A stretch of DNA of 64,000 bases from Salminus brasiliensis (taxonomy: Eukaryota > Chordata > Actinopteri > Characiformes > Bryconidae), in NCBI RefSeq assembly GCF_030463535.1, contig NC_132892.1, positions 31,570,436 through 31,634,435 on the forward strand, read 5' to 3'. The notes under the pieces were generated by a model that saw nothing but the letters and a program-made list of their open reading frames with translations, was not told where the DNA came from and made no database searches. Positions 19,591 through 63,700 of this stretch are shown piece by piece. A program made the position numbers and the translations under genes. Position 1 is the first letter of the stretch; the number at the start of each line of letters is the position of its first letter.

Positions 19591-22232
19591 TATTGTGTGT
19601 GTGTGTGTGTGTGTGTTTGTGTGTGTATGTGTGTGTGTTACCTCATTGTGCGGTTGCTGGAGTTCTCTGTTGTTACTGGTGGGATGTTTTGTGCCCCCTG
19701 TTGTCATCTGATTAGTGCCAGCTAGACTGTCCATAACTACAGGGAACACACACAGCTGGTTTAGAGGAAAAAGACTGATGAAAGAGGAGCAAGAGATCTG
19801 TCATCTGCATCACCTCCCAGAGAAAGAAAGAGACTAAAGGAGAATTTGTGTGAATTAACTCACGGACCATATAATTGTCCACTAACAAAAGAGTAAAGAG
19901 TAAAAACTCCAACATGAGGGACTGAAGTCCAGTTCCTGATGTTACAGTGAGAGCAGATCTTCTAGTTTGTGCATTAGCTGCCACCAGCCAATGAAACCTT
20001 TCTGTTATTTTAAGGACTGACCAGTAGGGGGTGTTGGTGTCTCCGCTCCAGAACCTCCAGAGTCCAGTGTCTGAGAGAGAGACAGAGAGAGGGAGACAGT
20101 TAGTACTTTAGCATATTTTAGCAGTGTACAGATTATAATGAATATCTGACATGCAAATCTATATAAACATCTAATGATATTTGACTCAATAAACTCACTA
20201 TAATAATGTGGTGTGTGTACATGTGTGTGAGAGAGAGACGGCTGGTTTAAACAGGAAGGAGATCTGGACTGATGTACAAACAGCAGCTATGCTTTCATTC
20301 TACTATAAAGTCTGATGTTAAACACAGCAGTAACACTTGCATCACACTCCACTTGTGTTGGATTAATATGATGACTGTAGACGTAGAAGCTTTCACGATT
20401 GAGATGCTTTCTAGAAGTAGAAGCGTTTACGACTGAGATGCTTTCTAGAAGTAGAAGCTTTCAGGATTGAGATGCTTTCGAGACATAGAAGCTTTCACGA
20501 TTGAGATGCTTTCTAAACGTAGAAGCGTTTATGACTGAGATGCTTTCTAGAAGTAGAAGCTTTCAGGATTGAGATGATTTCTAAACGTAGAAGCTTTCAG
20601 GATTGAGATGCTTTCTAGACATAGAAGCTTTCATGATTGAGATGCTTTCTAGACGTAGAAGCTTTCATGATTAAGATGCTTTCTAAACGTAGAAGCTTTC
20701 AGGATTGAGATGCTTTCTAGACATAGAAGCTTTCATGATTGAGATGCTTTCTAGACATAGAAGCTTTCATGATTGAGATGCTTTTTAGAAGTAGAAGCTT
20801 TCATGATTGAGATGCTTTCTAGACATAGAAGCTTTCATGATTGAGATGCTTTCTAGAAGTAGAAGCTTTCAGGATTAAGATGCTTTCTAGATGTAGAAGC
20901 TTTCATGATTAAGATGCTTTCTAGAAGTAGAAGCTTTCAGGATTGAGATGCTTTCTGGACGCAGAAGCTTTCATGATTGAGATGCTTTCTAGACATAGAA
21001 GCTTTCACGACTGAGATGCTTTCTAGAGGTAGAAGCTTTCAGGATTAAGATGCTTTCTAGAAGTAGAAGCTTTCATTATTAAGATGCTTTCTGGACGTAG
21101 AAGCTTTCATGACTGAGATGCTTTCTAAACGTAGAAGCGTTTACGACTGAGATGCTTTCTAGAAGTAGAAGCTTTCAGGATTGAGATGCTTTCTAGACGT
21201 AGAAGCTTTCATGATTGAGATGATTTCTAAACGTAGAGGCTTTCAGGATTGAGATGCTTTCTAGACATAGAAGCTTTCATGATTGAGATGCTTTCTAGAC
21301 ATAGAAGCTTTCATGATTGAGATGATTTTTAGAAGTAGAAGCTTTCACGATTGAGACGCTTTCTAGACATAGAAGCTTTCATGATTGACATGCTTTCTAG
21401 AAGTAGAAGCTTTCATGATTAAGATGCTTTCTAGAAGTAGAAGCTTTCAGGATTTAGATGCTTTCTGGACGCAGAAGCTTTCACGACTGAGATGCTTTCT
21501 AGACATAGAAGCTTTCATGATTGAGATGCTTTTTAGAAGTAGAAGCTTTCACGATTGAGACGCTTTCTAGACATAGAAGCTTTCATGATTGACATGCTTT
21601 CTAGAAGTAGAAGCTTTCAGGATTAAGATGCTTTCTAGAAGTAGAAGCTTTCATGATTAAGATGCTTTCTAGAAGTAGAAGCTTTCAGGATTGAGATGCT
21701 GTCTGGACGCAGAAGCTTTCACGACTGAGATGCTTTCTAGAGGTAGAAGCTTTCATGATTGAGATGCTTTCTAGAAGTAGAAGCTTTCATGATTGAGATG
21801 CTTTCTAGACATAGAAGCTTTCATGACTGAGATGCTTTCTAGAGGTAGAAGCTTTCACGATTGAGATGCTTTCTAGAAGTAGAAGCTTTCATGATTAAGA
21901 TGCTTTCTGGACGTAGAAGCTTTCACGACAGAGATGCCTTCTAGAAGTAGAAGCTTTCAGGATTGAGATGCTTTCTAGACGTAGAAGCTTTCACGATTGA
22001 GATGCTATCTAGAGGTAGAAGCTTTCATGATTTAGATGCTTTCTAGAAGAAGAAGCTTTCATGACTGAGATGCTTTCTAGACGTAGAAGCTTTCATGATT
22101 GAGATGCTTTCAAGAAGTAGAAGCTTTCAGGAGTGAGATGCTTTCTAGACGTAGAAGCTTTCATGATTGAGATGCTTTCTAGAAGTAGAAGCTTTCACGA
22201 TTGAGATGCTTTCTAGAAGTAGAAGCTTTCAC
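19591..22232 (-). repeat. Array unit 1 (left edge, diverged)
   Basis: Exon B 19642-19736, exon A 20022-20070; no exon D or segment C. B carries changes (GGTKHPT; LQQPHNE). One G fewer after the B acceptor shifts the frame of the intronic ORF. Minisatellite block 20381-22232 is the longest, about 54 copies, and the most mixed (CATGATT, CAGGATT, ACATAGAAG variants). Confidence 0.85.
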
Positions 22233-22789
22233 ATGGTGTGCATGAATGTAAGAGCTGGGTTAATCAGGATGGAGATCTGGGCTGATGTATGATGGATGTA
22301 TGATCATTTATGGTTTCATTCTACTATAAAACACAGCAGTACCACTTACACCAGATTAGATTGGTAAGTTACCTTTAACTTGATCTCCTCTGATCCATTC
22401 TCTTCCTTAGTGGGTGTGTCCTGATTGTCCATAGAAAGCTACATTATTAAGAGATGATAATATTGTCCCATTTTAGCAGGTATTAGCATTGAACACATAT
22501 ATTTTCAGTTTTGCTAAGTTGTGAGTGAAGATGAGGATCAGGAAGCAGAACAGAGCTCCAGAAACACAAAGCAGAATCAACACAGATAAGTAAAGCATAA
22601 TGCAGTAGATAGGAAAGGCAAATTGTCTGAATAATTACTAGATTGAAATCATTTCTAGATGGAGATGGAGAAAATGACAAGATGGAGATGAGTTCTAGAT
22701 GGAGATGATTTCTGGATAAAGATGGTTTCTAGATGGAGATGATTTCTAGATGTTCTCTTGATTGAGAAGCTTTCTAAACCCTATTGTGC

Positions 22790-22820
<31 letters not shown>

Positions 22821-24916
22821 TGTGTTACCTCATCGTGCAGTTGCTTGAGTTCTCTGTTGTTACTGGTGGGAGGTTTTGTGTCCCCTGTTGTCATCTGATT
22901 AGTGCCAGCTAGACTGTCCATAACTACAGGGGAACACACACAGCTGGTTTAGAGGAAAAAGACAGATGAAAGAGGAGCAAGAGATCTGTCATCTGCATCA
23001 CCTCCCAGAGAAAGAAAGAGACTAAAGGAGAATTTGTGTGAATTAACCCATGGACCATATAATTGTCCACTAACAAAAGAGTAAAGAGTAAAAACTCCAA
23101 CATGAGGGACTGAAGTCCAGTTCCTGATGTTACAGTGAGAGCAGATCTTCTAGTTTGTGCATTAGCTGCCACCAGCCAATGAAACCTTTCTGTTATTTTA
23201 AGAACTGACCAGTAGGGGGTGTTGGTGTCTCCGCTCCAGAACCTCCTGAGTCCAGTGTCTGAGAGAGAGACAGAGAGAGGGAGACAGTTAGTACTTTAGC
23301 ATATTTTAGCAGTGTACAGATTATAATGAATATCTGACATGCAAATCTATATAAACATCTAATGATATTTGACTCATTAAACTCACTATAATAATGTGGT
23401 GTGTGTACATGTGTGTGAGAGAGAGACGGCTGGTTTAAACAGGAAGGAGATCTGGACTGATGTACAAACAGCAGCTATGCTTTCATTCTAGTATAAAGTC
23501 TGATGTTAAACACAGCAGTAACACTTACATCACACTCCACTTGTGTTGGGTTAATATGATGACTGTAGACGTAGAAGCTTTCACGATTGAGATGCTTTCT
23601 AGAAGTAGAAGCTTTCACGATTGAGATGCTTTCTAGAAGTAGAAGCTTTCACGATTGAGATGCTTTCTAGAAGTAGAAGCGTTTACGACTGAGATGCTTT
23701 CTAGAAGTAGAAGCGTTTACGACTGAGATGCTTTCTAGAAGTAGAAGCTTTCATGATTGAGATGCTTTCTAGATGTAGAAGCTTTCATGATTAAGATGCT
23801 TTCTAGACGTAGAAGCTGTCATGATTGAGATGCTTTCTAGACATAGAAGCTTTCACGATTGAGATATTTTCTAAACGTAGAAGTGTTTACGACTGAGATG
23901 CTTTCTAGAAGTAGAAGCGTTTACGACTGAGATGCTTTCTAGAAGTAGAAGCGTTTACGACTGAGATGCTTTCTAGAAGTAGAAGCTTTCATGATTGAGA
24001 TGCTTTCTAGATGTAGAAGCTTTCATGATTAAGATGCTTTCTAGACGTAGAAGCTTTCATGATTGAGATGCTTTCTAGACATAGAAGCTTTCACGATTGA
24101 GATGCTTTCTAAACTTAGAAGCATTTACGACTGAGATGCTTTCTAGAAGTAGAAGCTTTCATGATTGAGATGCTTTCTAGACATAGAAGCTTTCACGACA
24201 GAGATGCTTTCTAGAAGTAGAAGCTTTCAGGATTGAGATGCTTTCTAGACGTAGAAGCTTTCACTATTGAGATGCTTTCTAGAGCTAGAAGCTTTCATGA
24301 TTTAGATGCTTTCTAGAAGAAGAAGCTTTCGCGATTGAGATGCTTTCTAGACGTAGAAGCTTTCACATGGTGTGCATGAATGTAAGAGCTGGGTTAATCA
24401 GGATGGAGATCTGGGCTGATGTATGATGGATGTATGATCATTTATGGTTTCATTCTACTATAAAACACAGCAGTACCACTTACACCAGATTAGATTGGTA
24501 AATTACATTTAACTTGTCCTCCTCTGAACCATTCTCTTCCTTAGGGGGTGTGTCCTGATTGTCAATAGAAAGCTGCATTAATCAGAGATGATAATATTGT
24601 CCCATTTTAGCAGGTATTAGCATTGAACACATATATTTTCAGTTTTACTACGTTGTGAGTGAAGATGAGGATCAGGAAGCAGAACAGAGCTCCAGAAACA
24701 CAAAGCAGAATCAACACGGATAAGTAAAGCATAATGCAGTAGATAGGAAAGGCAAATTGTCTGAATAATTACTAGATTGAAATCATTTCTAGATGGAGAT
24801 GGAGAAAATTACAAGATGGAGATGAGTTCTAGATGGAGATGATTTCTGGATAAAGATGGTTTCTAGATGGAGATGATTTCTAGATGTTCTCTTGATTGAG
24901 AAGCTTTCTAAACCCT

Positions 24917-24960
<44 letters not shown>

Positions 24961-27259
24961 TTTGTTACCTCATCGTGCAGTTGCTTGAGTTCTCTGTTGT
25001 TACTGGTGGGAGGTTTTGTGTCCCCTGTTGTCATCTGATTAGTGCCAGCTAGACTGTCCATAACTACAGGGGAACACACACAGCTGGTTTAGAGGAAAAA
25101 GACTGATGAAAGAGGAGCAAGAGATCTGTCATCTGCATCACCTCCCAGAGAAAGAAAGAGACAAAAGGAGAATTTGTGTGAATTAACCCATGGACCATAT
25201 AATTGTCCACTAACAAAAGAGTAAAGAGTAAAAACTCCAACATGAGGGACTGAAGTCCAGTTCCTGATGTTACAGTGAGAGCAGATCTTCTAGTTTGTGC
25301 ATTAGCTGCCACCAGCCAATGAAACCTTTCTGTTATTTTCAGGACTGACCAGTAGGGGGTGTTGGTGTCTCCGCTCCATAACCTCCTGAGTCCAGTGTCT
25401 GAGAGAGAGACAGAGAGAGGGAGACAGTTAGTACTTTAGTATATTTTAGCAGTGTACAGATTATAATGAATATCTGACATGCAAATCTATATAAACATCT
25501 AATGATATTTGACTCATTAAACTCACTATAATAATGTGGTGTGTGTACATGTGTGTGAGAGAGAGGGCTGGTTTAAACAGGAAGGAGATCTGGACTGATG
25601 TACAAACAGCAGCTATGCTTTCATTCTACTATAAAGTCTGATGTTAAACACAGCAGTAACACTTACATCACACTCCACTTGTGTTGGGTTAATATGATAA
25701 CTGTAGACGTAGAAGCTTTCACGATTGAGATGCTTTCTAGAAGTAGAAGTGTTTACGACTGAGATGCTTTCTAGAAGTAGAAGCTTTCATGATTAAGATG
25801 CTTTCTGGACGTAGAAGCTTTCACGACTGAGATGCTTTCTAAACGTAGAAGCGTTTACGACTGAGATGCTTTCTAGAAGTAGAAGCTTTCAGGATTGAGA
25901 TGCTTTCTAGACATTGAAGCTTTCGCGATTGAGATGCTTTCTAGAAGTAGAAGCTTTCGCGATTGAGATGCTTTCTAGACATAGAAGCTTTCGCGATTGA
26001 AATGCTTCCTAGAAGTAGAAGCTTTCACGATTGAGATGCTTTCTAGAAGTAGAAGCTTTCGCAATTGAGATGCTTTCTAGACATAGAAGCTTTCGCGATT
26101 GAAATGCTTCCTAGAAGTAGAAGCTTTCACGATTGAGATGCTTTCTAGAAGTAGAAGCTTTCAGGATTGAGATGCTTTCTAGAAGTAGAAGCTTTCGCGA
26201 TTGAGATGCTTTCTAGACATAGAAGCTTTCGCGATTGAAATGCTTCCTAGAAGTAGAAGCTTTCACGATTGAGATGCTTTCTAGAAGTAGAAGCTTTCAG
26301 GATTGAGATGCTTTCTAGAAGTAGAAGCTTTCGCGATTGAGATGCTTTCTAGACATAGAAGCTTTCGCGATTGAAATGCTTCCTAGAAGTAGAAGCTTTC
26401 ACGATTGAGATGCTTTCTAGAAGTAGAAGCTTTCGCGATTGAGATGCTTTCTAGAAGTAGAAGCTTTCACGATTGAGATGCTTTCTAGAAGTAGAAGCTT
26501 TCACGATTGAGATGCTTTCTAGAAGTAGAAGCTTTCGCGATTGAGATGCTTTCTAGAAGTAGAAGCTTTCACAATTGAGATGCTTTCTAGAAGTAGAAGC
26601 TTTCGTGATTGAGATGCTTTCTAGAAGTAGAAGCTTTCACGATTGAGATGCTTTCTAGAAGTAGAAGCTTTCGCGATTGAGATGCTTTCTAGAAGTAGAA
26701 GCTTTCACATGGTGTGCATGAATGTAAGAGCTGGGTTAATCAGGATGGAGATCTGGGCTGATGTATGATGGATGTATGATCATTTATGGTTTCATTCTAC
26801 TATAAAACACAGCAGTACCACTTACACCAGATTAGATTGGTAAATTACCTTTAACTTGTTCTCCTCTGAACCATTCTCTTCCTTAGGGGGTGTGTCCTGA
26901 TTGTCAATAGAAAGCTGCATTAATAAGAGATGGTAATATTGTCCCATTTTAGCAGGTATTAGCATTGAACACATATATTTTCAGTTTTGCTACGTTGTGA
27001 GTGAAGATGAGGATCAGGAAGCAGAACAGAGCTCCAGAAACACAAAGCAGGATCAACACGGATAAGTAAAGCATAATGCAGTAGATAGGAAAGGCAAATT
27101 GTCTGAATAATTACTAGATTGAAATCATTTCTAGATGGAGATGGAGAAAATGACAAGATGGAGATGAGTTCTAGATGGAGATGATTTCTGGATAAAGATG
27201 GTTTCTAGATGGAGATGATTTCTAGATGTTCTCTTGATTGAGAAGCTTTGTAAACCCTA

Positions 27260-27292
<33 letters not shown>

Positions 27293-29218: not shown

Positions 29219-29272
<54 letters not shown>

Positions 29273-31408: not shown

Positions 31409-31450
<42 letters not shown>

Positions 31451-33410: not shown

Positions 33411-33448
<38 letters not shown>

Positions 33449-35694: not shown

Positions 35695-37862
35695 TTTGTT
35701 ACCTCATCGTGCAGTTGCTTGAGTTCTCTGTTGTTACTGGTGGGAGGTTTTGTGTCCCCTGTTGTCATCTGATTAGTGCCAGCTAGACTGTCCATAACTA
35801 CAGGGGAACACACACAGCTGGTTTAGAGGAAAAAGACTGATGAAAGAGGAGCAAGAGATCTGTCATCTGCATCACCTCCCAGAGAAAGAAAGAGACTAAA
35901 GGAGAATTTGTGTGAATTAACCCACGGACCATATAATTGTCCACTAACAAAAGAGTAAAGAGTAAAAACTCCAACATGAGGGACTGAAGTCCAGTTCCTG
36001 ATGTTACAGTGAGAGCAGATCTTCTAGTTTGTGCATTAGCTGCCACCAGCCAATGAAACCTTTCTGTTATTTTCAGGACTGACCAGTAGGGGGTGTTGGT
36101 GTCTCCGCTCCAGAACCTCCTGAGTCCAGTGTCTGAGAGAGAGACAGAGAGAGGGAGACAGTTAGTACTTTAGTATATTTTAGCAGTGTACAGATTATAA
36201 TGAATATCTGACATGCAAATCTATATAAACATCTAATGATATTTGACTCATTAAACTCACTATAATAATGTGGTGTGTGTACATGTGTGTGAGAGAGAGG
36301 GCTGGTTTAAACAGGAAGGAGATCTGGACTGATGTACAAACAGCAGCTATGCTTTCATTCTACTATAAAGTCTGATGTTAAACACAGCAGTAACACTTAC
36401 ATCACACTCCACTTGTGTTGGGTTAATATGATAACTGTAGACGTAGAAGCTTTCACGATTGAGATGCTTTCTAGAAGTAGAAGTGTTTACGACTGAGATG
36501 CTTTCTAGAAGTAGAAGCTTTCATGATTAAGATGCTTTCTGGACGTAGAAGCTTTCACGACTGAGATGCTTTCTAAACGTAGAAGCGTTTACGACTGAGA
36601 TGCTTTCTAGAAGTAGAAGCTTTCAGGATTGAGATGCTTTCTAGACATTGAAGCTTTCGCGATTGAGATGCTTTCTAGAAGTAGAAGCTTTCGCGATTGA
36701 GATGCTTTCTAGAAGTAGAAGCTTTCAGGATTGAGATGCTTTCTAGAAGTAGAAGCTTTCGCGATTGAGATGCTTTCTAGACATAGAAGCTTTCGCGATT
36801 GAAATGCTTCCTAGAAGTAGAAGCTTTCACGATTGAGATGCTTTCTAGAAGTAGAAGCTTTCGCGATTGAGATGCTTTCTAGAAGTAGAAGCTTTCACGA
36901 TTGAGATGCTTTCTAGAAGTAGACGCTTTCGCGATTGAGATGCTTTCTAGACATAGAAGCTTTCGCGATTGAAATGCTTCCTAGAAGTAGAAGCTTTCAC
37001 GATTGAGATGCTTTCTAGAAGTAGAAGCTTTCGCGATTGAGATGCTTTCTAGAAGTAGAAGCTTTCACGATTGAGATGCTTTCTAGAAGTAGAAGCTTTC
37101 ACGATTGAGATGCTTTCTAGAAGTAGAAGCTTTCGCGATTGAGATGCTTTCTAGAAGTAGAAGCTTTCACAATTGAGATGCTTTCTAGAAGTAGAAGCTT
37201 TCGTGATTGAGATGCTTTCTAGAAGTAGAAGCTTTCACGATTGAGATGCTTTCTAGAAGTAGAAGCTTTCGCGATTGAGATGCTTTCTAGAAGTAGAAGC
37301 TTTCACATGGTGTGCATGAATGTAAGAGCTGGGTTAATCAGGATGGAGATCTGGGCTGATGTATGATGGATGTATGATCATTTATGGTTTCATTCTACTA
37401 TAAAACACAGCAGTACCACTTACACCAGATTAGATTGGTAAATTACCTTTAACTTGTTCTCCTCTGAACCATTCTCTTCCTTAGGGGGTGTGTCCTGATT
37501 GTCAATAGAAAGCTGCATTAATAAGAGATGATAATATTGTCCCATTTTAGCAGGTATTAGCATTGAACACATATATTTTCAGTTTTGCTACGTTGTGAGT
37601 GAAGATGAGGATCAGGAAGCAGAACAGAGCTCCAGAAACACAAAGCAGAATCAACACGGATAAGTAAAGCATAATGCAGTAGATAGGAAAGGCAAATTGT
37701 CTGAATAATTACTAGATTGAAATCATTTCTAGATGGAGATGGAGAAAATGACAAGATGGAGATGAGTTCTAGATGGAGATGATTTCTGGATAAAGATGGT
37801 TTCTAGATGGAGATGATTTCTAGATGTTCTCTTGATTGAGAAGCTTTCTAAACCCTATTGTG

Positions 37863-37902
<40 letters not shown>

Positions 37903-40070
37903 TTTGTTACCTCATCGTGCAGTTGCTTGAGTTCTCTGTTGTTACTGGTGGGAGGTTTTGTGTCCCCTGTTGTCATCTGATTAGTGCCAGCTAGACTGTC
38001 CATAACTACAGGGGAACACACACAGCTGGTTTAGAGGAAAAAGACTGATGAAAGAGGAGCAAGAGATCTGTCATCTGCATCACCTCCCAGAGAAAGAAAG
38101 AGACTAAAGGAGAATTTGTGTGAATTAACCCACGGACCATATAATTGTCCACTAACAAAAGAGTAAAGAGTAAAAACTCCAACATGAGGGACTGAAGTCC
38201 AGTTCCTGATGTTACAGTGAGAGCAGATCTTCTAGTTTGTGCATTAGCTGCCACCAGCCAATGAAACCTTTCTGTTATTTTCAGGACTGACCAGTAGGGG
38301 GTGTTGGTGTCTCCGCTCCAGAACCTCCTGAGTCCAGTGTCTGAGAGAGAGACAGAGAGAGGGAGACAGTTAGTACTTTAGTATATTTTAGCAGTGTACA
38401 GATTATAATGAATATCTGACATGCAAATCTATATAAACATCTAATGATATTTGACTCATTAAACTCACTATAATAATGTGGTGTGTGTACATGTGTGTGA
38501 GAGAGAGGGCTGGTTTAAACAGGAAGGAGATCTGGACTGATGTACAAACAGCAGCTATGCTTTCATTCTACTATAAAGTCTGATGTTAAACACAGCAGTA
38601 ACACTTACATCACACTCCACTTGTGTTGGGTTAATATGATAACTGTAGACGTAGAAGCTTTCACGATTGAGATGCTTTCTAGAAGTAGAAGTGTTTACGA
38701 CTGAGATGCTTTCTAGAAGTAGAAGCTTTCATGATTAAGATGCTTTCTGGACGTAGAAGCTTTCACGACTGAGATGCTTTCTAAACGTAGAAGCGTTTAC
38801 GACTGAGATGCTTTCTAGAAGTAGAAGCTTTCAGGATTGAGATGCTTTCTAGACATTGAAGCTTTCGCGATTGAGATGCTTTCTAGAAGTAGAAGCTTTC
38901 GCGATTGAGATGCTTTCTAGAAGTAGAAGCTTTCAGGATTGAGATGCTTTCTAGAAGTAGAAGCTTTCGCGATTGAGATGCTTTCTAGACATAGAAGCTT
39001 TCGCGATTGAAATGCTTCCTAGAAGTAGAAGCTTTCACGATTGAGATGCTTTCTAGAAGTAGAAGCTTTCGCGATTGAGATGCTTTCTAGAAGTAGAAGC
39101 TTTCACGATTGAGATGCTTTCTAGAAGTAGACGCTTTCGCGATTGAGATGCTTTCTAGACATAGAAGCTTTCGCGATTGAAATGCTTCCTAGAAGTAGAA
39201 GCTTTCACGATTGAGATGCTTTCTAGAAGTAGAAGCTTTCGCGATTGAGATGCTTTCTAGAAGTAGAAGCTTTCACGATTGAGATGCTTTCTAGAAGTAG
39301 AAGCTTTCACGATTGAGATGCTTTCTAGAAGTAGAAGCTTTCGCGATTGAGATGCTTTCTAGAAGTAGAAGCTTTCACAATTGAGATGCTTTCTAGAAGT
39401 AGAAGCTTTCGTGATTGAGATGCTTTCTAGAAGTAGAAGCTTTCACGATTGAGATGCTTTCTAGAAGTAGAAGCTTTCGCGATTGAGATGCTTTCTAGAA
39501 GTAGAAGCTTTCACATGGTGTGCATGAATGTAAGAGCTGGGTTAATCAGGATGGAGATCTGGGCTGATGTATGATGGATGTATGATCATTTATGGTTTCA
39601 TTCTACTATAAAACACAGCAGTACCACTTACACCAGATTAGATTGGTAAATTACCTTTAACTTGTTCTCCTCTGAACCATTCTCTTCCTTAGGGGGTGTG
39701 TCCTGATTGTCAATAGAAAGCTGCATTAATAAGAGATGATAATATTGTCCCATTTTAGCAGGTATTAGCATTGAACACATATATTTTCAGTTTTGCTACG
39801 TTGTGAGTGAAGATGAGGATCAGGAAGCAGAACAGAGCTCCAGAAACACAAAGCAGAATCAACACGGATAAGTAAAGCATAATGCAGTAGATAGGAAAGG
39901 CAAATTGTCTGAATAATTACTAGATTGAAATCATTTCTAGATGGAGATGGAGAAAATGACAAGATGGAGATGAGTTCTAGATGGAGATGATTTCTGGATA
40001 AAGATGGTTTCTAGATGGAGATGATTTCTAGATGTTCTCTTGATTGAGAAGCTTTCTAAACCCTATTGTG

Positions 40071-40110
<40 letters not shown>

Positions 40111-43100
40111 TTTGTTACCTCATCGTGCAGTTGCTTGAGTTCTCTGTTGTTACTGGTGGGAGGTTTTGTGTCCCCTGTTGTCATCTGATTAGTGCCAGCT
40201 AGACTGTCCATAACTACAGGGGAACACACACAGCTGGTTTAGAGGAAAAAGACTGATGAAAGAGGAGCAAGAGATCTGTCATCTGCATCACCTCCCAGAG
40301 AAAGAAAGAGACTAAAGGAGAATTTGTGTGAATTAACCCACGGACCATATAATTGTCCACTAACAAAAGAGTAAAGAGTAAAAACTCCAACATGAGGGAC
40401 TGAAGTCCAGTTCCTGATGTTACAGTGAGAGCAGATCTTCTAGTTTGTGCATTAGCTGCCACCAGCCAATGAAACCTTTCTGTTATTTTCAGGACTGACC
40501 AGTAGGGGGTGTTGGTGTCTCCGCTCCATAACCTCCTGAGTCCAGTGTCTGAGAGAGAGACAGAGAGAGGGAGACAGTTAGTACTTTAGTATATTTTAGC
40601 AGTGTACAGATTATAATGAATATCTGACATGCAAATCTATATAAACATCTAATGATATTTGACTCATTAAACTCACTATAATAATGTGGTGTGTGTACAT
40701 GTGTGTGAGAGAGAGGGCTGGTTTAAACAGGAAGGAGATCTGGACTGATGTACAAACAGCAGCTATGCTTTCATTCTACTATAAAGTCTGATGTTAAACA
40801 CAGCAGTAACACTTACATCACACTCCACTTGTGTTGGGTTAATATGATAACTGTAGACGTAGAAGCTTTCACGATTGAGATGCTTTCTAGAAGTAGAAGT
40901 GTTTACGACTGAGATGCTTTCTAGAAGTAGAAGCTTTCATGATTAAGATGCTTTCTGGACGTAGAAGCTTTCACGACTGAGATGCTTTCTAAACGTAGAA
41001 GCGTTTACGACTGAGATGCTTTCTAGAAGTAGAAGCTTTCAGGATTGAGATGCTTTCTAGACATTGAAGCTTTCGCGATTGAGATGCTTTCTAGAAGTAG
41101 AAGCTTTCGCGATTGAGATGCTTTCTAGAAGTAGAAGCTTTCGCGATTGAGATGCTTTCTAGAAGTAGAAGCTTTCAGGATTGAGATGCTTTCTAGAAGT
41201 AGAAGCTTTCGCGATTGAGATGCTTTCTAGACATAGAAGCTTTCGCGATTGAAATGCTTCCTAGAAGTAGAAGCTTTCACGATTGAGATGCTTTCTAGAA
41301 GTAGAAGCTTTCGCGATTGAGATGCTTTCTAGAAGTAGAAGCTTTCACGATTGAGATGCTTTCTAGACATAGAAGCTTTCGCGATTGAAATGCTTCCTAG
41401 AAGTAGAAGCTTTCACGATTGAGATGCTTTCTAGAAGTAGAAGCTTTCGCGATTGAGATGCTTTCTAGAAGTAGAAGCTTTCACGATTGAGATGCTTTCT
41501 AGAAGTAGAAGCTTTCACGATTGAGATGCTTTCTAGAAGTAGAAGCTTTCGCGATTGAGATGCTTTCTAGAAGTAGAAGCTTTCACAATTGAGATGCTTT
41601 CTAGAAGTAGAAGCTTTCGTGATTGAGATGCTTTCTAGAAGTAGAAGCTTTCACGATTGAGATGCTTTCTAGAAGTAGAAGCTTTCGCGATTGAGATGCT
41701 TTCTAGAAGTAGAAGCTTTCACATGGTGTGCATGAATGTAAGAGCTGGGTTAATCAGGATGGAGATCTGGGCTGATGTATGATGGATGTATGATCATTTA
41801 TGGTTTCATTCTACTATAAAACACAGCAGTACCACTTACACCAGATTAGATTGGTAAATTACCTTTAACTTGTTCTCCTCTGAACCATTCTCTTCCTTAG
41901 GGGGTGTGTCCTGATTGTCAATAGAAAGCTGCATTAATAAGAGATGGTAATATTGTCCCATTTTAGCAGGTATTAGCATTGAACACATATATTTTCAGTT
42001 TTGCTACGTTGTGAGTGAAGATGAGGATCAGGAAGCAGAACAGAGCTCCAGAAACACAAAGCAGGATCAACACGGATAAGTAAAGCATAATGCAGTAGAT
42101 AGGAAAGGCAAATTGTCTGAATAATTACTAGATTGAAATCATTTCTAGATGGAGATGGAGAAAATGACAAGATGGAGATGAGTTCTAGATGGAGATGATT
42201 TCTGGATAAAGATGGTTTCTAGATGGAGATGATTTCTAGATGTTCTCTTGATTGAGAAGCTTTCTAAACCCTATTGTGTGTGTGTGTGTGTGTGTGTATG
42301 TGTGTGTGTTACCTCATCGTGCAGTTGCTTGAGTTCTCTGTTGTTACTGGTGGGAGGTTTTGTGTCCCCTGTTGTCATCTGATTAGTGCCAGCTAGACTG
42401 TCCATAACTACAGGGGAACACACACAGATGGTTTAGAGGAAAAAGACTGATGAAAGAGGAGCAAGAGATCTGTCATCTGCATCACCTCCCAGAGAACGAA
42501 AGAGACTAAAGGAGAATTTGTGTGAATTAACCCATGGACCATATAATTGTCCACTAACAAAAGAGTAAAGAGTAAAAACTCCAACATGAGGGACTGAAGT
42601 CCAGTTCCTGATGTTACAGTAAGAGCAGATCTTCTAGTTTGTGCATTAGCTGCCACCAGCCAATGAAACCTTTCTGTTATTTTCAGGACTGACCAGTAGG
42701 GGGTGTTGGTGTCTCCGCTCCAGAACCTCCTGAGTCCAGTGTCTGAGAGAGAGACAGAGAGAGGGAGACAGTTAGTACTTTAGCATATTTTAGCAGTGTA
42801 CAGATTATAATGAATATCTGACATGCAAATCTATATAAACATCTAATGATATTTGACTCATTAAACTCACTATAATAATGTGGTGTGTGTACATGTGTGT
42901 GAGAGAGAGACGGCTGGTTTAAACAGGAAGGAGATCTGGACTGATGTACAAACAGCAGCTATGCTTTCATTCTACTATAAAGTCTGATGTTAAACACAGC
43001 AGTAACACTTACATCACACTCCACTTGTGTTGGGTTAATATGATAAGTGTAGACGTAGAAGCTTTCACGATTGAGATGCTTTCTAGAAGTAGAAGTGTTT

Positions 43101-50386: not shown

Positions 50387-50426
<40 letters not shown>

Positions 50427-52494: not shown

Positions 52495-52538
<44 letters not shown>

Positions 52539-55500: not shown

Positions 55501-57122
55501 AAACAGGAAGGAGATCTGGACTGATGTTCAAACAGCAGCTATGCTTTCATTCTACTATAAAGTCTGATGTTAAACACAGCAGTAACACTTACATCACACT
55601 CCACTTGTGTTGGGTTAATATGATGACTGTAGACGTAGAAGCTTTCACGATTGAGATGCTTTCTAGAAGTAGAAGTGTTTACGACTGAGATGCTTTCTAG
55701 AAGTAGAAGCTTTTATGATTAAGATGCTTTCTGGACGTAGAAGCTTTCACGACTGAGATGCTTTCTAAACGTAGAAGCGTTTACGACTGAGATGCTTTCT
55801 AGAAGTAGAAGCTTTCAGGATTGAGATGCTTTCTAAACATTGAAGCTTTCATGATTGAGATGCTTTCTAGATGTAGAAGCTTTCATGATTGAGATGATTT
55901 CTAAACGTAGAAGCGTTTCCGACTGAGATGCTTTCTAAACGTAGAAGCTTTCAGGATTGAGATGCTTTCTAGACGTAGAAGCTTTCGCGATTGAGATGCT
56001 TTCTAGAAGTAGAAGCTTTCGCGATTGAGATGCTTTCTAGACATAGAAGCTTTCATGATTGAGATGCTTTCTAGAAGTAGAAGCTTTCATGATTAAGATG
56101 CTTTCTGGACACAGAAGCTTTCACGATTGAGATGCTTTCTAGAGGTAGAAGCTTTCATGATTGAGATGCTTTCTAGACATAGAAGCTTTCACGACTGAGA
56201 TGCTTTCTAGAAGTAGAAGCTTTCAGGATTGAGATGCTTTCTAGACGTAGAAGCTTTCACGATTGAGATGCTTTCTAGAAGTAGAAGCTTTCGCGATTGA
56301 GATGCTTTCTAGAAGTAGAAGTTTTCACGATTGAGATGCTTTCTAGAAGTAGAAGCTTTCACGATTGAGATGCTTTCTAGAAGTAGAAGCTTTCGCGATT
56401 GAGATGCTTTCTAGAAGTAGAAGCTTTCACGATTGAGATGCTTTCTAGAAGTAGAAGCTTTCGTGATTGAGATGCTTTCTAGAAGTAGAAGCTTTCACGA
56501 TTGAGATGCTTTCTAGAAGTAGAAGCTTTCGCGATTGAGATGCTTTCTAGAAGTAGAAGCTTTCACATGGTGTGCATGAATGTAAGAGCTGGGTTAATCA
56601 GGATGGAGATCTGGGCTGATGTATGATGGATGTATGATCATTTATGGTTTCATTCTACTATAAAACACAGCAGTACCACTTACACCAGATTAGATTGGTA
56701 AATTACCTTTAACTTGTTCTCCTCTGAACCATTCTCTTCCTTAGGGGGTGTGTCCTGATTGTCAATAGAAAGCTGCATTAATAAGAGATGATAATATTGT
56801 CCCATTTTAGCAGGTATTAGCATTGAACACATATATTTTCAGTTTTGCTACGTTGTGAGTGAAGATGAGGATCAGGAAGCAGAACAGAGCTCCAGAAACA
56901 CAAAGCAGAATCAACACGGATAAGTAAAGCATAATGCAGTAGATCGGAAAGGCAAATTGTCTGAATAATTACTAGATTGAAATCATTTCTAGATGGAGAT
57001 GGAGAAAATGACAAGATGGAGATGAGTTCTAGATGGAGATGATTTCTAGATAAAGATGGTTTCTAGATGGAGATGATTTCTAGATGTTCTCTTGATTGAG
57101 AAGCTTTCTAAACCCTATTGTG

Positions 57123-57162
<40 letters not shown>

Positions 57163-60100
57163 TTTGTTACCTCATCGTGCAGTTGCTTGAGTTCTCTGTT
57201 GTTACTGGTGGGAGGTTTTGTGTCCCCTGTTGTCATCTGATTAGTGCCAGCTAGACTGTCCATAACTACAGGGGAACACACACAGCTGGTTTAGAGGAAA
57301 AAGACTGATGAAAGAGGAGCAAGAGATCTGTCATCTGCATCACCTCCCAGAGAAAGAAAGAGACTAAAGGAGAATTTGTGTGAATTAACCCATGGACCAT
57401 ATAATTGTCCACTAACAAAAGAGTAAAGAGTAAAAACTCCAACATGAGGGACTGAAGTCCAGTTCCTGATGTTACAGTGAGAGCAGATCTTCTAGTTTGT
57501 GCATTAGCTGCCACCAGCCAATGAAACCTTTCTGTTATTTTCAGGACTGACCAGTAGGGGGTGTTGGTGTCTCCGCTCCAGAACCTCCTGAGTCCAGTGT
57601 CTGAGAGAGAGACAGAGAGAGGGAGACAGTTAGTACTTTAGTATATTTTAGCAGTGTACAGATTATAATGAATATCTGACATGCAAATCTATATAAACAT
57701 CTAATGATATTTGACTCATTAAACTCACTATAATAATGTGGTGTGTGTACATGTGTGTGAGAGAGAGACGGCTGGTTTAAACAGGAAGGAGATCTGGACT
57801 GATGTACAAACAGCAGCTATGCTTTCATTCTACTATAAAGTCTGATGTTAAACACAGCAGTAACACTTACATCACACTCCACTTGTGTTGGGTTAATATG
57901 ATAACTGTAGACGTAGAAGCTTTCACGATTGAGATGCTTTCTAGAAGTAGAAGTGTTTACGACTGAGATGCTTTCTAGAAGTAGAAGCTTTCATGATTAA
58001 GATGCTTTCTGGACGTAGAAGCTTTAACGACTGAGATGCTTTCTAAACGTAGAAGCGTTTACGACTGAGATGCTTTCTAGTAGTAGAAGCTTTCAGGATT
58101 GAGATGCTTTCTAGACATTGAAGCTTTTTAATGATTGAGATGCTTTCTAGACGTAGAAGCTTTCATGATTGAGATGATTTCTAAACGTAGAAGCTTTCAG
58201 GATTGAGATGCTTTCTAGACATAGAAGCTTTCATGATTGAGATGCTTTCTAGACGTAGAAGCGTTTCCAACTGAGATGCTTTCTAAATGTAGAAGCTTTC
58301 AGGATTGAGATGCTTTCTAGACGTAGAAGCTTTCGCGATTGAGATGCTTTCTAGAAGTAGAAGCTTTCAGGATTGAGATGCTTTCTAGAAGTAGAAGCTT
58401 TCGCGATTGAGATGCTTTCTAGACATAGAAGCTTTCACGATTGAGATGCTTTCTAAACGTAGAAGCTTTCAGGATTGAGATGCTTTCTAGACGTAGAAGC
58501 TTTCGCGATTGAGATGCTTTCTAGAAGTAGAAGCTTTCAGGATTGAGATGCTTTCTAGAAGTAGAAGCTTTCACGACTGAGATGCTTTCTAGAAGTAGAA
58601 GCTTTCGCGATTGAGATGCTTCCTGGAAGTAGAAGCTTTCACGATTGAGATGCTTTCTAGAAGTAGAAGCTTTCGTGATTGAGATGCTTTCTAGAAGTAG
58701 AAGCTTTCACGATTGAGATGCTTTCTAGAAGTAGAAGCTTTCACGATTGAGATGCTTTCTAGAAGTAGAAGCTTTCGCGATTGAGATGCTTTCTAGAAGT
58801 AGAAGCTTTCGTGATTGAGATGCTTTCTAGAAGTAGAAGCTTTCACGATTGAGATGCTTTCTAGAAGTAGAAGCTTTCGCGATTGAGATGCTTTCTAGAA
58901 GTAGAAGCTTTCACATGGTGTGCATGAATGTAAGAGCTGGGTTAATCAGGATGGAGATCTGGGCTGATGTATGATGGATGTATGATCATTTATGGTTTCA
59001 TTCTACTATAAAACACAGCAGTACCACTTACACCAGATTAGATTGGTAAATTACCTTTAACTTGTTCTCCTCTGAACCATTCTCTTCCTTAGGGGGTGTG
59101 TCCTGATTGTCAATAGAAAGCTGCATTAATAAGAGATGATAATATTGTCCCATTTTAGCAGGTATTAGCATTGAACACATATATTTTCAGTTTTGCTACG
59201 TTGTGAGTGAAGATGAGGATCAGGAAGCAGAACAGAGCTCCAGAAACACAAAGCAGAATCAACACGGATAAGTAAAGCATAATGCAGTAGATAGGAAAGG
59301 CAAATTGTCTGAATAATTACTAGATTGAAATCATTTCTAGATGGAGATGGAGAAAATTACAAGATGGAGATGAGTTCTAGATGGAGATGATTTCTGGATA
59401 AAGATGGTTTCTAGATGGAGATGATTTCTAGATGTTCTCTTGATTGAGAAGCTTTCTAAACCCTATTGTGTGTGTGTATGTGTGTGTGTTACCTCATCGT
59501 GCAGTTGCTTGAGTTCTTTGTTGTTACTGGTGGGAGGTTTTGTGTCCCCTGTTGTCATCTGATTAGTGCCAGCTAGACTGTCCATAACTACAGGGGAACA
59601 CACACAGCTGGTTTAGAGGAAAAAGACTGATGAAAGAGGAGCAAGAGATCTGTCATCTGCATCACCTCCCAGAGAACGAAAGAGACTAAAGGAGAATTTG
59701 TGTGAATTAACCCATGGACCATATAATTGTCCACTAACAAAAGAGTAAAGAGTAAAAACTCCAACATGAGGGACCGAAGTCCAGTTCCTGATGTTACAGT
59801 GAGAGCAGATCTTCTAGTTTGTGCATTAGCTGCCACCAGCCAATGAAACCTTTCTGTTATTTTCAGGACTGACCAGTAGGGGGTGTTGGTGTCTCCGCTC
59901 CAGAACCTCCTGAGTCCAGTGTCTGAGAGAGAGACAGAGAGAGGGAGACAGTTAGTACTTTAGCATATTTTAGCAGTGTACAGATTATAATGAATATCTG
60001 ACATGCAAATCTATATAAACATCTAATGATATTTGACTCAATAAACTCACTATAATAATGTGGTGTGTGTACATGTGTGTGAGAGAGAGACGGCTGGTTT

Positions 60101-61274
60101 AAACAGGAAGGAGATCTGGACTGATGTTCAAACAGCAGCTATGCTTTCATTCTACTATAAAGTCTGATGTTAAACACAGCAGTAACACTTACATCACACT
60201 CCACTTGTGTTGGGTTAATATGATAACTGTAGACGTAGAAGCTTTCACGATTGAGATGCTTTCTAGAGGTAGAAGCTTTCATGATTGAGATGCTTTCTAG
60301 ACATAGAAGCTTTCACGACTGAGATGCTTTCTAGAAGTAGAAGCTTTCAGGATTGAGATGCTTTCTAGACGTAGAAGCTTTCACGATTGAGATGCTTTCT
60401 AGAAGTAGAAGCTTTCGCGATTGAGATGCTTCCTAGAAGTAGAAGCTTTCACGATAGAGATGCTTTCTAGAAGTAGAAGCTTTCGTGATTGAAATGCTTT
60501 CTAGAAGTAGAAGGTTTCACGATTGAGATGCTTTCTAGAAGTAGAAGCTTTCACGATTGAGATGCTTTCTAGAAGTAGAAGCTTTCGCGATTGAGATGCT
60601 TTCTAGAAGTAGAAGCTTTCACGATTGAGATGCTTTCTAGAAGTAGAAGCTTTCGCGATTGAGATGCTTTCTAGAAGTAGAAGCTTTCACGATTGAGATG
60701 CTTTCTAGAAGTAGAAGCTTTCACATGGTGTGCATGAATGTAAGAGCTGGGTTAATCAGGATGGAGATCTGGGCTGATGTATGATGGATGTATGATCATT
60801 TATGGTTTCATTCTACTATAAAACACAGCAGTACCACTTACACCAGATTAGATTGGTAAATTACCTTTAACTTGTTCTCCTCTGAACCATTCTCTTCCTT
60901 AGGGGGTGTGTCCTGATTGTCAATAGAAAGCTGCATTAATAAGAGATGATAATATTGTCCCATTTTAGCAGGTATTAGCATTGAACACATATATTTTCAG
61001 TTTTGCTACGTTGTGAGTGAAGATGAGGATCAGGAAGCAGAACAGAGCTCCAGAAACACAAAGCAGAATCAACACGGATAAGTAAAGCATAATGCAGTAG
61101 ATAGGAAAGGCAAATTGTCTGAATAATTACTAGATTGAAATCATTTCTAGATGGAGATGGAGAAAATGACAAGATGGAGATGAGTTCTAGATGGAGATGA
61201 TTTCTGGATAAAGATGGTTTCTAGATGGAGATGATTTCTAGATGTTCTCTTGATTGAGAAGCTTTCTAAACCCT

Positions 61275-61308
<34 letters not shown>

Positions 61309-63230
61309 CTCATCGTGCAGTTGCTTGAGTTCTCTGTTGTTACTGGTGGGAGGTTTTGTGTCCCCTGTTGTCATCTGATTAGTGCCAGCTAGACTGTCCA
61401 TAACTACAGGGGAACACACACAGCTGGTTTAGAGGAAAAAGACTGATGAAAGAGGAGCAAGAGATCTGTCATCTGCATCACCTCCCAGAGAACGAAAGAG
61501 ACTAAAGGAGAATTTGTGTGAATTAACCCATGGACCATATAATTGTCCACTAACAAAAGAGTAAAGAGTAAAAACTCCAACATGAGGGACTGAAGTCCAG
61601 TTCCTGATGTTACAGTGAGAGCAGATCTTCTAGTTTGTGCATTAGCTGCCACCAGCCAATGAAACCTTTCTGTTATTTTCAGGACTGACCAGTAGGGGGT
61701 GTTGGTGTCTCCGCTCCAGAACCTCCTGAGTCCAGTGTCTGAGAGAGAGACAGAGAGAGGGAGACAGTTAGTACTTTAGCATATTTTAGCAGTGTACAGA
61801 TTATAATGAATATCTGACATGCAAATCTATATAAACATCTAATGATATTTGACTCATTAAACTCACTATAATAATGTGGTGTGTGTACATGTGTGTGAGA
61901 GAGAGACGGCTGGTTTAAACAGGAAGGAGATCTGGACTGATGTACAAACAGCAGCTATGCTTTCATTCTACTATAAAGTCTGATGTTAAACACAGCAGTA
62001 ACACTTACATCACACTCCACTTTTGTTGGGTTAATAAGATGACTGTAGACGTAGAAGCTTTCGCGATTGAGATGCCTTCTAGACATAGAAGCTTTCACGA
62101 TTGAGATGCTTTCTAAACGTAGAAGTGTTTACGACTGAGATGCTTTCTAGAAGTAGAAGCTTTCAGGATTGAGATGCTTTCTAGACATAGAAGCTTTCAT
62201 GATTGAGATGCTTTCTAGACGTAGAAGCGTTTACGACTGAGATGCTTTCTAGAAGTAGAAGCTTTCAGGATTGAGATGCTTTCGAGACATAGAAGCTTTC
62301 ACGATTGAGATGCTTTCTAAACGTAGAAGCGTTTACGACTGAGATGCTTTCTAGAAGTAGAAGCTTTCAGGATTGAGATGCTTTCTAGACATAGAAGCTT
62401 TCATGATTAAGATGCTTTCTAAACGTAGAAGCTTTCAGGATTGAGATGCTTTCTAGACATAGAAGCTTTCATGATTGAGATGCTTTCTAGACATAGAAGC
62501 TTTCATGATTGAGATGCTTTTTAGAAGTAGAAGCTTTCACGATTGAGATGCTTTCTAGACATAGAAGCTTTCATGATTGAGATGCTTTCTAGAAGTAGAA
62601 GCTTTCAGGATTAAGATGCTTTCTAGAAGTAGAAGCTTTCACGATTGAGATGCTTTCTAGAAGTAGAAGCTTTCACATGGTGTGCATGAATGTAAGAGCT
62701 GGGTTAATCAGGATGGAGATCTGGGCTGATGTATGATGGATGTATGATCATTTATGGTTTCATTCTACTATAAAACACAGCAGTACCACTTACACCAGAT
62801 TAGATTGGTAAGTTACCTTTAACTTGTTCTCCTCTGATCCATTATCTTCCTTAGTGGGTGTGTCCTGATTGTCCATAGAAAGCTACATTAATCAGAGATG
62901 ATAATATTGTCCCATTTTAGCAGGTATTAGCATTGAACACATATATTTTCAGTTTTGCTACGTTGTGAGTGAAGATGAGGATCAGGAAGCAGAACAGAGC
63001 TCCAGAAACACAAAGCAGAATCAACACGGATAAGTAAAGCATAATGCAGTAGATAGGAAAGGCAAATTGTCTGAATAATTACTAGATTGAAATCATTTCT
63101 AGATGGAGATGGAGAAAATTACAAGATGGAGATGAGTTCTAGATGGAGATGATTTCTGGATAAAGATGGTTTCTAGATGGAGATGATTTCTAGATGTTCT
63201 CTTGATTGAGAAGCTTTCTAAACCCTATTG

Positions 63231-63263
<33 letters not shown>

Positions 63264-63700
63264 GTGTTACCTCATCGTGCAGTTGCTTGAGTTCTCTGTT
63301 GTTACTGGTGGGAGGTTTTGTGTCCCCTGTTGTCATCTGATTAGTGCCAGCTAGACTGTCCATAACTACAAGGGAACACACACAGCTGGTTTAGAGGAAA
63401 AAGACTGATGAAAGAGGAGCAAGAGATCTGTCATCTGCATCACCTCCCAGAGAACGAAAGAGACTAAAGGAGAATTTGTGTGAATTAACCCACGGACCAT
63501 ATAATTGTCCACTAACAAAAGAGTAAAGAGTAAAAACTCCAACATGAGGGACTGAAGTCCAGTTCCTGATGTTACAGTGAGAGCAGATCTTCTAGTTTGT
63601 GCATTAGCTGCCACCAGCCAATGAAACCTTTCTGTTATTTTCAGGACTGACCAGTAGGGGGTGTTGGTGTCTCCGCTCCAGAACCTCCTGAGTCCAGTGT
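19642..63700 (-). CDS. Repeat-protein coding exons A, B and D across the array (partial gene)
   Basis: In transcript order A (49 nt, phase 0-1; TLDSGGSGAETPTPPT), B (95 nt, 1-0; V-MDSLAGTNQMTTGDTKPPT and then SNNRELKQLHDE) and D (66 nt, 0-0; LSIDNQDTPPKEENG and then SEENKLK). The sum is 210 nt, exactly 70 codons, so each unit adds one 70-residue repeat in frame. Splice sites: A CTCTCTCAG and CTACTG|GTCAGT; B CCCCTGTAG and GAG|GTAACA; D TAATGCAG and AAAG|GTAATT. B is open in only that one frame, and for D only this frame is stop-free. The repeat is rich in T, P, S, E, N and D, likely disordered, acidic and perhaps glycosylated or phosphorylated; no known domain. I saw no frame break in the copies read. 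The 5' end lies beyond the window. The 3' end may be B of unit 1 spliced into GIMAP gene 2 exons. Confidence 0.6.
22233..24366 (-). repeat. Array unit 2
   Basis: Exon D 22373-22438, B 22829-22923, A 23210-23258; block 23569-24366, about 23 copies. D is a diverged form (LSMDNQDTPTKEENG; EEIKLK) that shares Met3 and Thr10 with unit 21. Confidence 0.88.
22483..22645 (-). pseudogene. Segment C: frame-broken transmembrane exon (example from unit 2)
   Basis: On the minus strand, after acceptor TTATTCAG, one frame reads a near-ideal membrane helix (FAFPIYCIIMLYLSVLILLC, then GALFCFLILIFTHN). The end THN resembles THFK of the gene 2 transmembrane exon. From the phase-0 end of exon B, however, the frame entered is the other one (ICLSYLLHYALL...), which runs to a stop. 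Segment C recurs in units 2-21 in the same state. I read it as a relic of a transmembrane exon that is now skipped, or as an alternative terminal exon. Confidence 0.45.
24367..26708 (-). repeat. Array unit 3
   Basis: Exon D 24507-24572, B 24969-25063, A 25350-25398; block 25707-26708, about 29 copies. D ends AAT|GTAATT instead of AAAG|GTAATT, a weaker donor, and changes the last residue to Asn. A has Tyr in place of the second Ser, as in unit 10. Confidence 0.88.
26709..28668 (-). repeat. Array unit 4
   Basis: Exon D 26849-26914, B 27301-27395, A 27682-27730; block 28041-28668, about 18 copies. Private variants shared with unit 11: CACAGATGG next to the B acceptor, AGCAGGATCAAC in segment C, and CACATGATGTG after the block. 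Confidence 0.88.
28669..30886 (-). repeat. Array unit 5
   Basis: Exon D 28809-28874, B 29281-29375, A 29662-29710; block 30021-30886, about 25 copies. Shares TAGATCGG in segment C and a synonymous change in D with unit 12. It has the longest (TG)n tract, about 29220-29277. Confidence 0.88.
30887..32860 (-). repeat. Array unit 6
   Basis: Exon D 31027-31092, B 31459-31553, A 31840-31888; block 32199-32860, about 19 copies. Shares GACTCAATAAACTC upstream of exon A with unit 13. Confidence 0.88.
32861..35096 (-). repeat. Array unit 7
   Basis: Exon D 33001-33066, B 33457-33551, A 33838-33886; block 34197-35096, about 26 copies. The order of variant repeats at the left of its block matches unit 14. 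Confidence 0.88.
35097..37306 (-). repeat. Array unit 8
   Basis: Exon D 35237-35302, B 35703-35797, A 36084-36132; block 36441-37306, about 25 copies. Nearly identical to units 9 and 10, with the same repeat order in the block; the youngest-looking triplet in the window. Confidence 0.88.
37307..39514 (-). repeat. Array unit 9
   Basis: Exon D 37447-37512, B 37911-38005, A 38292-38340; block 38649-39514, about 25 copies. 2208 bp, the same length as unit 10 and two bases shorter than unit 8, a (TG)n difference. Confidence 0.88.
39515..41722 (-). repeat. Array unit 10
   Basis: Exon D 39655-39720, B 40119-40213, A 40500-40548; block 40857-41722, about 25 copies. Exon A carries the Tyr variant of unit 3, so this unit is a mosaic: mostly like unit 9 but like unit 3 at exon A. 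Confidence 0.88.
41723..43374 (-). repeat. Array unit 11 (shortest)
   Basis: Exon D 41863-41928, B 42313-42407, A 42694-42742; block 43053-43374, only about 9 copies. Carries the private variants of unit 4, with roughly nine fewer minisatellite repeats than that unit. Confidence 0.88.
43375..45620 (-). repeat. Array unit 12
   Basis: Exon D 43515-43580, B 43981-44075, A 44362-44410; block 44721-45620, about 26 copies. Counterpart of unit 5 (TAGATCGG, synonymous D change). Confidence 0.88.
45621..47626 (-). repeat. Array unit 13
   Basis: Exon D 45761-45826, B 46225-46319, A 46606-46654; block 46965-47626, about 19 copies. Counterpart of unit 6. Confidence 0.88.
47627..49830 (-). repeat. Array unit 14
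   Basis: Exon D 47767-47832, B 48225-48319, A 48606-48654; block 48965-49830, about 25 copies. Counterpart of unit 7. Confidence 0.88.
49831..51938 (-). repeat. Array unit 15
   Basis: Exon D 49971-50036, B 50435-50529, A 50816-50864; block 51175-51938, about 22 copies. The block matches unit 13 but contains an extra three-repeat duplication marked by two AGTAGACGCTTTCACG copies. Confidence 0.88.
51939..54290 (-). repeat. Array unit 16
   Basis: Exon D 52079-52144, B 52547-52641, A 52928-52976; block 53287-54290, about 29 copies with a 2-bp insertion (GAAGCTTTTTAATGATT) shared only with unit 18. Confidence 0.88.
54291..56566 (-). repeat. Array unit 17
   Basis: Exon D 54431-54496, B 54895-54989, A 55276-55324; block 55633-56566, about 27 copies. 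Shares GGACCGAAGTCC and GATGTTCAAACAG with unit 19. Confidence 0.88.
56567..58914 (-). repeat. Array unit 18
   Basis: Exon D 56707-56772, B 57171-57265, A 57552-57600; block 57911-58914, about 29 copies. Counterpart of unit 16. Confidence 0.88.
58915..60724 (-). repeat. Array unit 19
   Basis: Exon D 59055-59120, B 59493-59587, A 59874-59922; block 60233-60724, about 14 copies. Counterpart of unit 17 with about half the block. It has the shortest (TG)n tract (59467-59490), and B has Lys in place of Arg in NNRELK. Confidence 0.88.
60725..62676 (-). repeat. Array unit 20
   Basis: Exon D 60865-60930, B 61309-61403, A 61690-61738; block 62049-62676, about 18 copies, with the mixed variant repeats seen in unit 1. 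Its (TG)n lacks the TATG interruption found in the other units. Confidence 0.88.

Follow-up and report, generated by a model that had tools for sequence, protein, structure and literature searches.

Can a row of kilobase-sized genomic units, each carrying the same three short exons, be read through as the coding region of a single protein whose length follows the number of units? The question is raised by a stretch of 64,000 nucleotides from the fish Salminus brasiliensis (RefSeq assembly GCF_030463535.1, contig NC_132892.1, positions 31,570,436 to 31,634,435 of the forward strand), hereafter the window, which is part of a 36.9-Mb contig in a searched genome of 1.07 Gb. A preliminary description of the window had noticed a 21-copy array whose spliced exons A, B and D would encode an in-frame repeat of 70 residues. 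The tandem array itself is real and, judging from a chain of exon phases, the identity of a GTPase exon and a shared promoter motif, it very likely lies inside a gene of the GIMAP family. The explanation favored here, to which a probability of roughly 0.6 is given, is that the units are also spliced into the mRNA to encode a repeat protein and make up the N-terminal coding part of a single GIMAP-type GTPase gene of ~56 kb on the minus strand.

On that strand, each unit runs from exon A through an intron, exon B, an intron with a segment C, exon D and an intron with a 34-bp variable number tandem repeat (VNTR) to the next A. All copies of the three exons in the window (A, n=21; B, n=21; D, n=20) are free of insertions and deletions, and they are placed as follows.

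19642..63700, minus strand: the repeat-unit array, with 21 A, 21 B and 20 D in the window.

63652..63700, minus strand: outermost exon A, 49 nt, phase 0 to 1.

61738, 59922, 57600, 55324, 52976, 50864, 48654, 46654, 44410, 42742, 40548, 38340, 36132, 33886, 31888, 29710, 27730, 25398, 23258, 20070, minus strand: ends of the other A copies.

63271..63365, minus strand: outermost exon B, 95 nt, phase 1 to 0, identical in 19/21 copies.

61309, 59493, 57171, 54895, 52547, 50435, 48225, 46225, 43981, 42313, 40119, 37911, 35703, 33457, 31459, 29281, 27301, 24969, 22829, 19642, minus strand: starts of the other B copies.

62817..62882, minus strand: outermost exon D inside the window, 66 nt, phase 0 to 0.

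60865, 59055, 56707, 54431, 52079, 49971, 47767, 45761, 43515, 41863, 39655, 37447, 35237, 33001, 31027, 28809, 26849, 24507, 22373, minus strand: starts of the other D copies.

61010..61117, minus strand: an example of segment C, open, hydrophobic and transmembrane-like, between B and D.

62046..62676, no strand assigned: an example of the intronic 34-bp VNTR, one of 20 such arrays in the window.

The limits first given for the array are exact, the outermost A ending at 63700 and the lowest B beginning at 19642. The count of 21 complete units in the window holds for A and B but not for D: no D follows below the lowest unit, and D0, the 21st copy, lies 1.4 kb beyond the window edge. Unit periods range from 1668 to 3188 bp (n=20), a spread that is mostly due to the intronic VNTR, whose 20 arrays have 9.6 to 54.5 copies each; a 34-mer consensus is matched exactly at 78 genomic sites, none of which lies away from the repeat-unit array or its edge. 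A probed 60-nt core of C occurs 20 times, once per D-bearing unit. Units 9 and 10 (36133-40548) are of equal length and show a single difference in 2208 bases, the VNTR included, which points to duplication or conversion in the very recent past. That near-identity, together with the reliance on a single assembly, could also be read as the mark of an assembler that inflated the copy number or order of the units; this is very improbable, however, as there is only one equal-length pair among the 20 full units, the VNTR copy number varies along the array, the terminal units have diverged and the window contains no N.

The splice signals are uniform throughout the array. An AG acceptor is found at 63/63 exons (21 A, 21 B and 21 D including D0), the donors are GTCAGT in 21/21 A, GTAACA in 21/21 B and GTAATT (18) or GTAACT (3) among the 21 D, and splice sites, length and frame are kept in 63/63 array exons. 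The earlier statement that B and D each have a single open frame, and that it is the frame demanded by the phases, proved correct, with stops in B at every offset but 2 and in D at every offset but 0; exon A is open in all three frames and therefore adds no constraint. When the exons were shuffled apart by dinucleotides and then joined (n=20,000), 10.3% of the products were open in any frame and 3.9% in the demanded one, and because of this last figure the frame evidence alone is suggestive, not decisive. Splice sites were scored with a position weight matrix. In the one unit scored, the sites described as good ranked A and D as the top two of 16 candidate exons, but B came only tenth. The 210-nt block is phase-neutral and remains open through 21 copies, which bears out the claim that any number of units can be spliced in frame, and the repeat is acidic as described (calculated isoelectric point 4.3, charge about -7 in one repeat). 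Head-to-tail genomic units, each with complete predicted exons and joining in frame as phase-neutral 210-nt units, have the layout of a coding multi-exon VNTR of the LPA KIV-2 type. Segment C is probably a skipped relic; it was considered as a coding exon between B and D and rejected, with stops appearing in D and poor splice scores in the copy scored (acceptor -0.7, donor -4.2).

Below the array, a series of predicted exons leads to the end of the gene.

18435..18450, minus strand: exon A', 16 nt, phase 0 to 1, encoding TLYDP, 33 nt different in length from A.

17780..17829, minus strand: exon B', 50 nt, phase 1 to 0, encoding EQATDIGEDFKQESIYK, 45 nt different in length from B.

14706..14788, minus strand: tail exon E5, 83 nt, phase 0 to 2.

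16807-16910, minus strand: alternative candidate for E5, 104 nt, phase 0 to 2, which would replace E5 and cannot be added to it.

14555..14623, minus strand: tail exon E6, 69 nt, phase 2 to 2.

11439..11532, minus strand: tail exon E7, 94 nt, phase 2 to 0, by eye matching a paralogue exon in position and phases.

11085..11172, minus strand: transmembrane exon, 88 nt, phase 0 to 1, hydropathy peak 2.3, by eye with a same-phase counterpart in the paralogue.

9919..10967, minus strand: last coding exon, with an AIG1 (GIMAP) GTPase domain, a repeated coiled-coil-like region, a C-terminal hydrophobic segment and the stop.

The last of these exons gives the gene its identity. Its intact 349-aa open frame contains an AIG1 domain (Pfam PF04548, E 4e-53, 180 bits vs a cut-off of 27) and has as its best match in the PDB the GIMAP7 structure 3zjc (E 7e-43). 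An immunoglobulin-type receptor, which segment C had prompted as a possible parent gene, was dropped once this domain had been found. A neighboring paralogue, a GIMAP at 1132-311 on the minus strand, is 81% identical over 235 residues, and a comparison of the two GTPase cores over 209 codons gave a ratio of nonsynonymous to synonymous rates of 0.48 (19 synonymous changes/134 sites, 35 nonsynonymous/493 sites), so that the core looks to be under moderate constraint. By eye, the paralogue can be read as a chain of a Met exon (out phase 2), a 2-2 exon, a 2-0 exon, a transmembrane exon 0-1 and the AIG1 exon, and it shares with the array gene the same final order of a phase 2-0 exon, a transmembrane exon 0-1 and an AIG1 exon in phase 1. 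Within the GTPase exon of the array gene, the coiled-coil part also holds, at 10142-10342, a 90-bp coding repeat (30 residues, 2.2 copies), possibly a second length-variable coding repeat in this gene.

Two of the tail exons, A' and B', were compared with A and B. The best-scoring of 43 candidate exons in the tail (acceptor 9.4, donor 8.5), A' begins with ACACT, as does A, and its upstream flank aligns to that of A with a score of 78.5, against a mean of 49.4 (standard deviation 6.8, maximum 68.0) in 100 shuffles; it is probably a diverged relative of A. B' aligned to B with a score of 53.0 (shuffles: mean 29.1, standard deviation 4.8, maximum 41.5), to which CA/TG runs contribute, and it is possibly a diverged relative of B. 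The two length differences, 33 and 45 nt, are both multiples of 3.

The opposite side of the array carries the features of a gene start.

65359-65424, minus strand, outside the window: start-codon exon D0, the outermost D.

65111-65157, outside the window, between D0 and the first A: candidate exon X, with fair splice sites.

D0 starts with CTTTCTATGG, and its ATG, in frame, gives MDKEDTPTKEENGSEEDKLK. Roughly 0.8 kb upstream, at 66234, lies the 13-base core AAAGTGAAAGTAA, which has exactly two sites in the 263 kb searched on both strands, this one and 6680, both on the minus strand. Each is followed by the CCAAT-type box GATTGGTTC and each is located upstream of one of the two GIMAP genes; the alignment of the two promoter stretches scored 54.0, compared with a mean of 28.2 (standard deviation 5.0, maximum 49.5) in 300 two-base-block shuffles. 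The core resembles an interferon-response element (ISRE), and the pair of motifs is a candidate interferon-responsive promoter of the GIMAP pair. A putative 5′ untranslated exon, with its end near 66104, scores 4.2 (percentile 100) for its donor. With D0 and the promoter to the right of the array and the transmembrane and AIG1 exons to its left, the predicted gene start and gene end flank the array.

Put together, these elements suggest a gene that would be transcribed from a promoter and 5′ untranslated exon at ~66.2-66.1 kb and translated from the start codon in D0. The 21 A + B blocks, joined by D and with C skipped, would follow, and then A', B', E5, E6, E7, the transmembrane exon and the AIG1 GTPase exon (10967-9919). 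The joined sequence of D0, all 21 A and 21 B, the 20 D in the window and the seven exons of the tail is 5,859 nt long, and its only stop is the terminal one. The product predicted from Met has 1,950 residues and 213 kDa, 1,468 of these residues (75%) belonging to 21 copies of the 70-residue repeat, and its hydropathy peaks fall in the transmembrane exon and the C-terminal segment. The mature mRNA would thus encode a membrane-anchored GTPase in which 21 acidic, Pro/Thr/Ser-rich repeats, probably disordered, would form a long flexible arm, in which T, E, P, D, G, L, S and N are abundant. The near-identical units could undergo unequal crossing-over or gene conversion, and the length of the protein would then change, as the D-A-B block has 210 nt and is phase-neutral, in steps of 70 residues without a frameshift. 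Splicing, translation, length polymorphism and an immune function of the array gene are what we infer from this arrangement. More tentative is the fuller picture of a GIMAP protein with a copy-number-variable arm of ~1,470 residues encoded by 63 tandem exons, driven by an interferon-type promoter and differing between alleles in 70-residue steps through unit recombination, where the fast-changing arm might serve as a contact surface for pathogens or as a length-tuned tether between GTPase and membrane.

Several observations weigh against an expressed arm, the first of them being the variation between copies. Purifying selection on the exons was not borne out by the comparison of units: variable columns in 20 units amounted to 10/210 in exons vs 43/1066 in introns and flanks (Fisher p = 0.57; 108 columns of C, 4 of them variable, were left out, and gap columns were not scored as variable). 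D was even more variable than the introns (8/66 vs 43/1066 columns, p = 0.007), while A and B together, with 2/144 columns, were lower without significance (p = 0.16). The 18 changes from the consensus in 21 blocks comprise 15 nonsynonymous, 3 synonymous and 0 stop changes; compared with expected fractions of 0.69/0.29/0.03 this gives p = 0.31, no sign of purifying selection, and the absence of stops among 18 changes is to be expected 62% of the time. The conservation of frames that had been proposed as a test has no power between copies, the units being too alike.

These changes look neutral and would fit an array that lay in a GIMAP intron and was normally skipped, D0 being spliced straight to A' or to a few units, in which case the array would be a passive satellite expansion with cryptic exons. 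With no unit between them, D0 and the tail are in frame and open to the final stop (505 codons), a result that follows from every block being phase-neutral, and the B and D donors are only moderate. In addition, the second tandem array described below repeats an exon resembling a GIMAP N-terminal exon, and no AIG1 match was found inside it (77.7-100.4 kb); amplification without the GTPase, or without use, therefore seems possible in this cluster. On the other hand, A' and B', if they are relatives of A and B, keep the phases, and their length differences are divisible by 3. The sites and frames kept in all the array exons point the same way, but intact frames weigh little because the copies are nearly identical. 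Altogether, a skipped array appears unlikely, though far from negligible.

The assembly of the tail and promoter has weak points as well. The choice of tail exons was made by eye and in part on the basis of phase, with several higher-scoring candidates left unused, and the acceptors of B' (-2.2), E7 (-0.5) and the GTPase exon (-0.5) are weak. A blastn search of the 263 kb for second copies of E5, E6, E7 and the transmembrane exon returned only the exons themselves at E<=0.05, and tblastn with the E7 and transmembrane peptides found no counterparts in the paralogue at E<=0.5 except nine residues of the AIG1 exon; since sequence search alone gave no counterpart, the kinship of the tail exons rests on position and phase. 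Likewise, no second promoter was recovered in the 263 kb at E<=0.05 by blastn with 251 bases.

Exon X brings in a different arrangement. Joined as D0-X-A-B it leads to a stop in B, and joined as D0-X-C-D20 it is open, with a hydrophobic helix near the N-terminus, possibly an older or alternative short form of the array gene. It could be imagined that the units derive from a GIMAP-like gene that was formerly separate and are now decayed partial copies of it, with D as a duplicated start exon and X and C as the remnant of its N-terminal and transmembrane part, none of them in use, or that the real product is the short D-X-C form. The retention of ATG in D0, D1 and D20, where the other 18 D copies have ATT, would fit with this, as would the reading of C as a hydrophobic helix in the open D0-X-C-D20 join and the presence of the C core 20 times. 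Yet there is no AIG1 match in any unit and no further exact copy of the promoter core inside the array, the splice sites of C are poor in the copy scored, and the frames of A, B and D are intact and mutually phased, which makes such an origin improbable. Two resemblances noted by eye, of C to the GIMAP transmembrane exon and of X to B, were discarded as copies, blastn in the 263 kb giving no such match at E<=0.05.

The favored explanation, a GIMAP gene with a spliced repeat arm, would place an LPA-type multi-exon coding repeat array within a family of immune GTPases that has undergone great expansion in fish. If expressed, it would be a locus where recombination changes protein length without a frameshift, and array length versus infection outcome would offer a ready association test. 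The case further suggests that annotation readily overlooks arrays of this kind, the exons being only 49-95 nt long and the units being separated by VNTRs.

Several other features were noticed around the gene. Outside the window, at 77700-100400 (L002-L004), the second tandem array consists of units of ~7-7.7 kb that are 95-97.5% alike in long self-matches, with three copies of the exon SMDTPNTFEDHLSF, which is like the N-terminal exon of a GIMAP at 107.5-109.5 kb. Beside the promoter of the array gene (L001:5936-9820, plus strand), there is an open frame of 1,294 residues with a 45-bp unit repeated 44 times, charged and coiled-coil-like (EEEEKRKELEKRVREE), for which no Pfam family was found at E<=0.01. 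Tc1-type transposase fragments (Pfam HTH_Tnp_Tc3_2) are located at 7732-8433 (plus strand) and 12151-12804 (minus strand); one falls between the two GIMAP genes and the other within the tail of the array gene.

Searches beyond the locus agree with the earlier view that the repeat has no known relative: it was found nowhere else in the 1.07-Gb genome at E<=1 (64/64 candidates scored, with sensitivity limited by the short exons), and it matched no Pfam family above the cut-off and no PDB chain at E<=1. The GTPase, in turn, has at least 116 matches in the genome (116/206 candidates scored), and no comparable array was seen by eye in the 2.6 kb upstream of three of them; further members of the family were seen within the 263-kb neighborhood. 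Among the 116 matches listed, the longest open frame, 1,882 residues, surrounds a GIMAP match at G000:C9:10775407-10776327. Among the titles and openings of abstracts listed by a literature search, none described a tandem repeat at the N-terminus of a GIMAP.

How does this array compare with known systems? The NBPF/Olduvai (DUF1220) genes, a primate gene family, contain tandem multi-exon units of ~1.5 kb amplified inside genes; they are like the array in these units and differ from it in having another protein unit and no GTPase. In LPA, the KIV-2 repeat encodes folded kringles in a secreted protein and has two exons per unit vs three here. GIMAP/IAN GTPases, as described in excerpts of one account, share with the array gene the AIG1 domain, a coiled-coil-like region and a C-terminal hydrophobic segment; their transmembrane segments are C-terminal, not N-terminal, and those excerpts mention no tandem N-terminal repeat (PMC8201404). 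In teleosts, excerpts of another report describe expansions of up to nearly 190 GIMAP genes and a response of zebrafish GIMAP genes to viral exposure (PMC9245644, citing Balla et al.). The closest parallel is in the architecture of LPA KIV-2, where, according to excerpts of three reports, a 5.6-kb unit is present 1-40 times per allele (PMC11462820, PMC11201333, PMC6314250). The likeness lies in kilobase exon-intron units arranged head to tail within one gene, phase-neutral, that would add fixed length steps; the allele polymorphism of LPA is documented in these excerpts, whereas the array is known from one assembly. The gene, the gene family and the domain are unrelated and the probable function differs, the array contributing an unfolded-looking acidic unit of 70 residues in front of a GTPase; in operation it would resemble the coding KIV-2 repeat of LPA.

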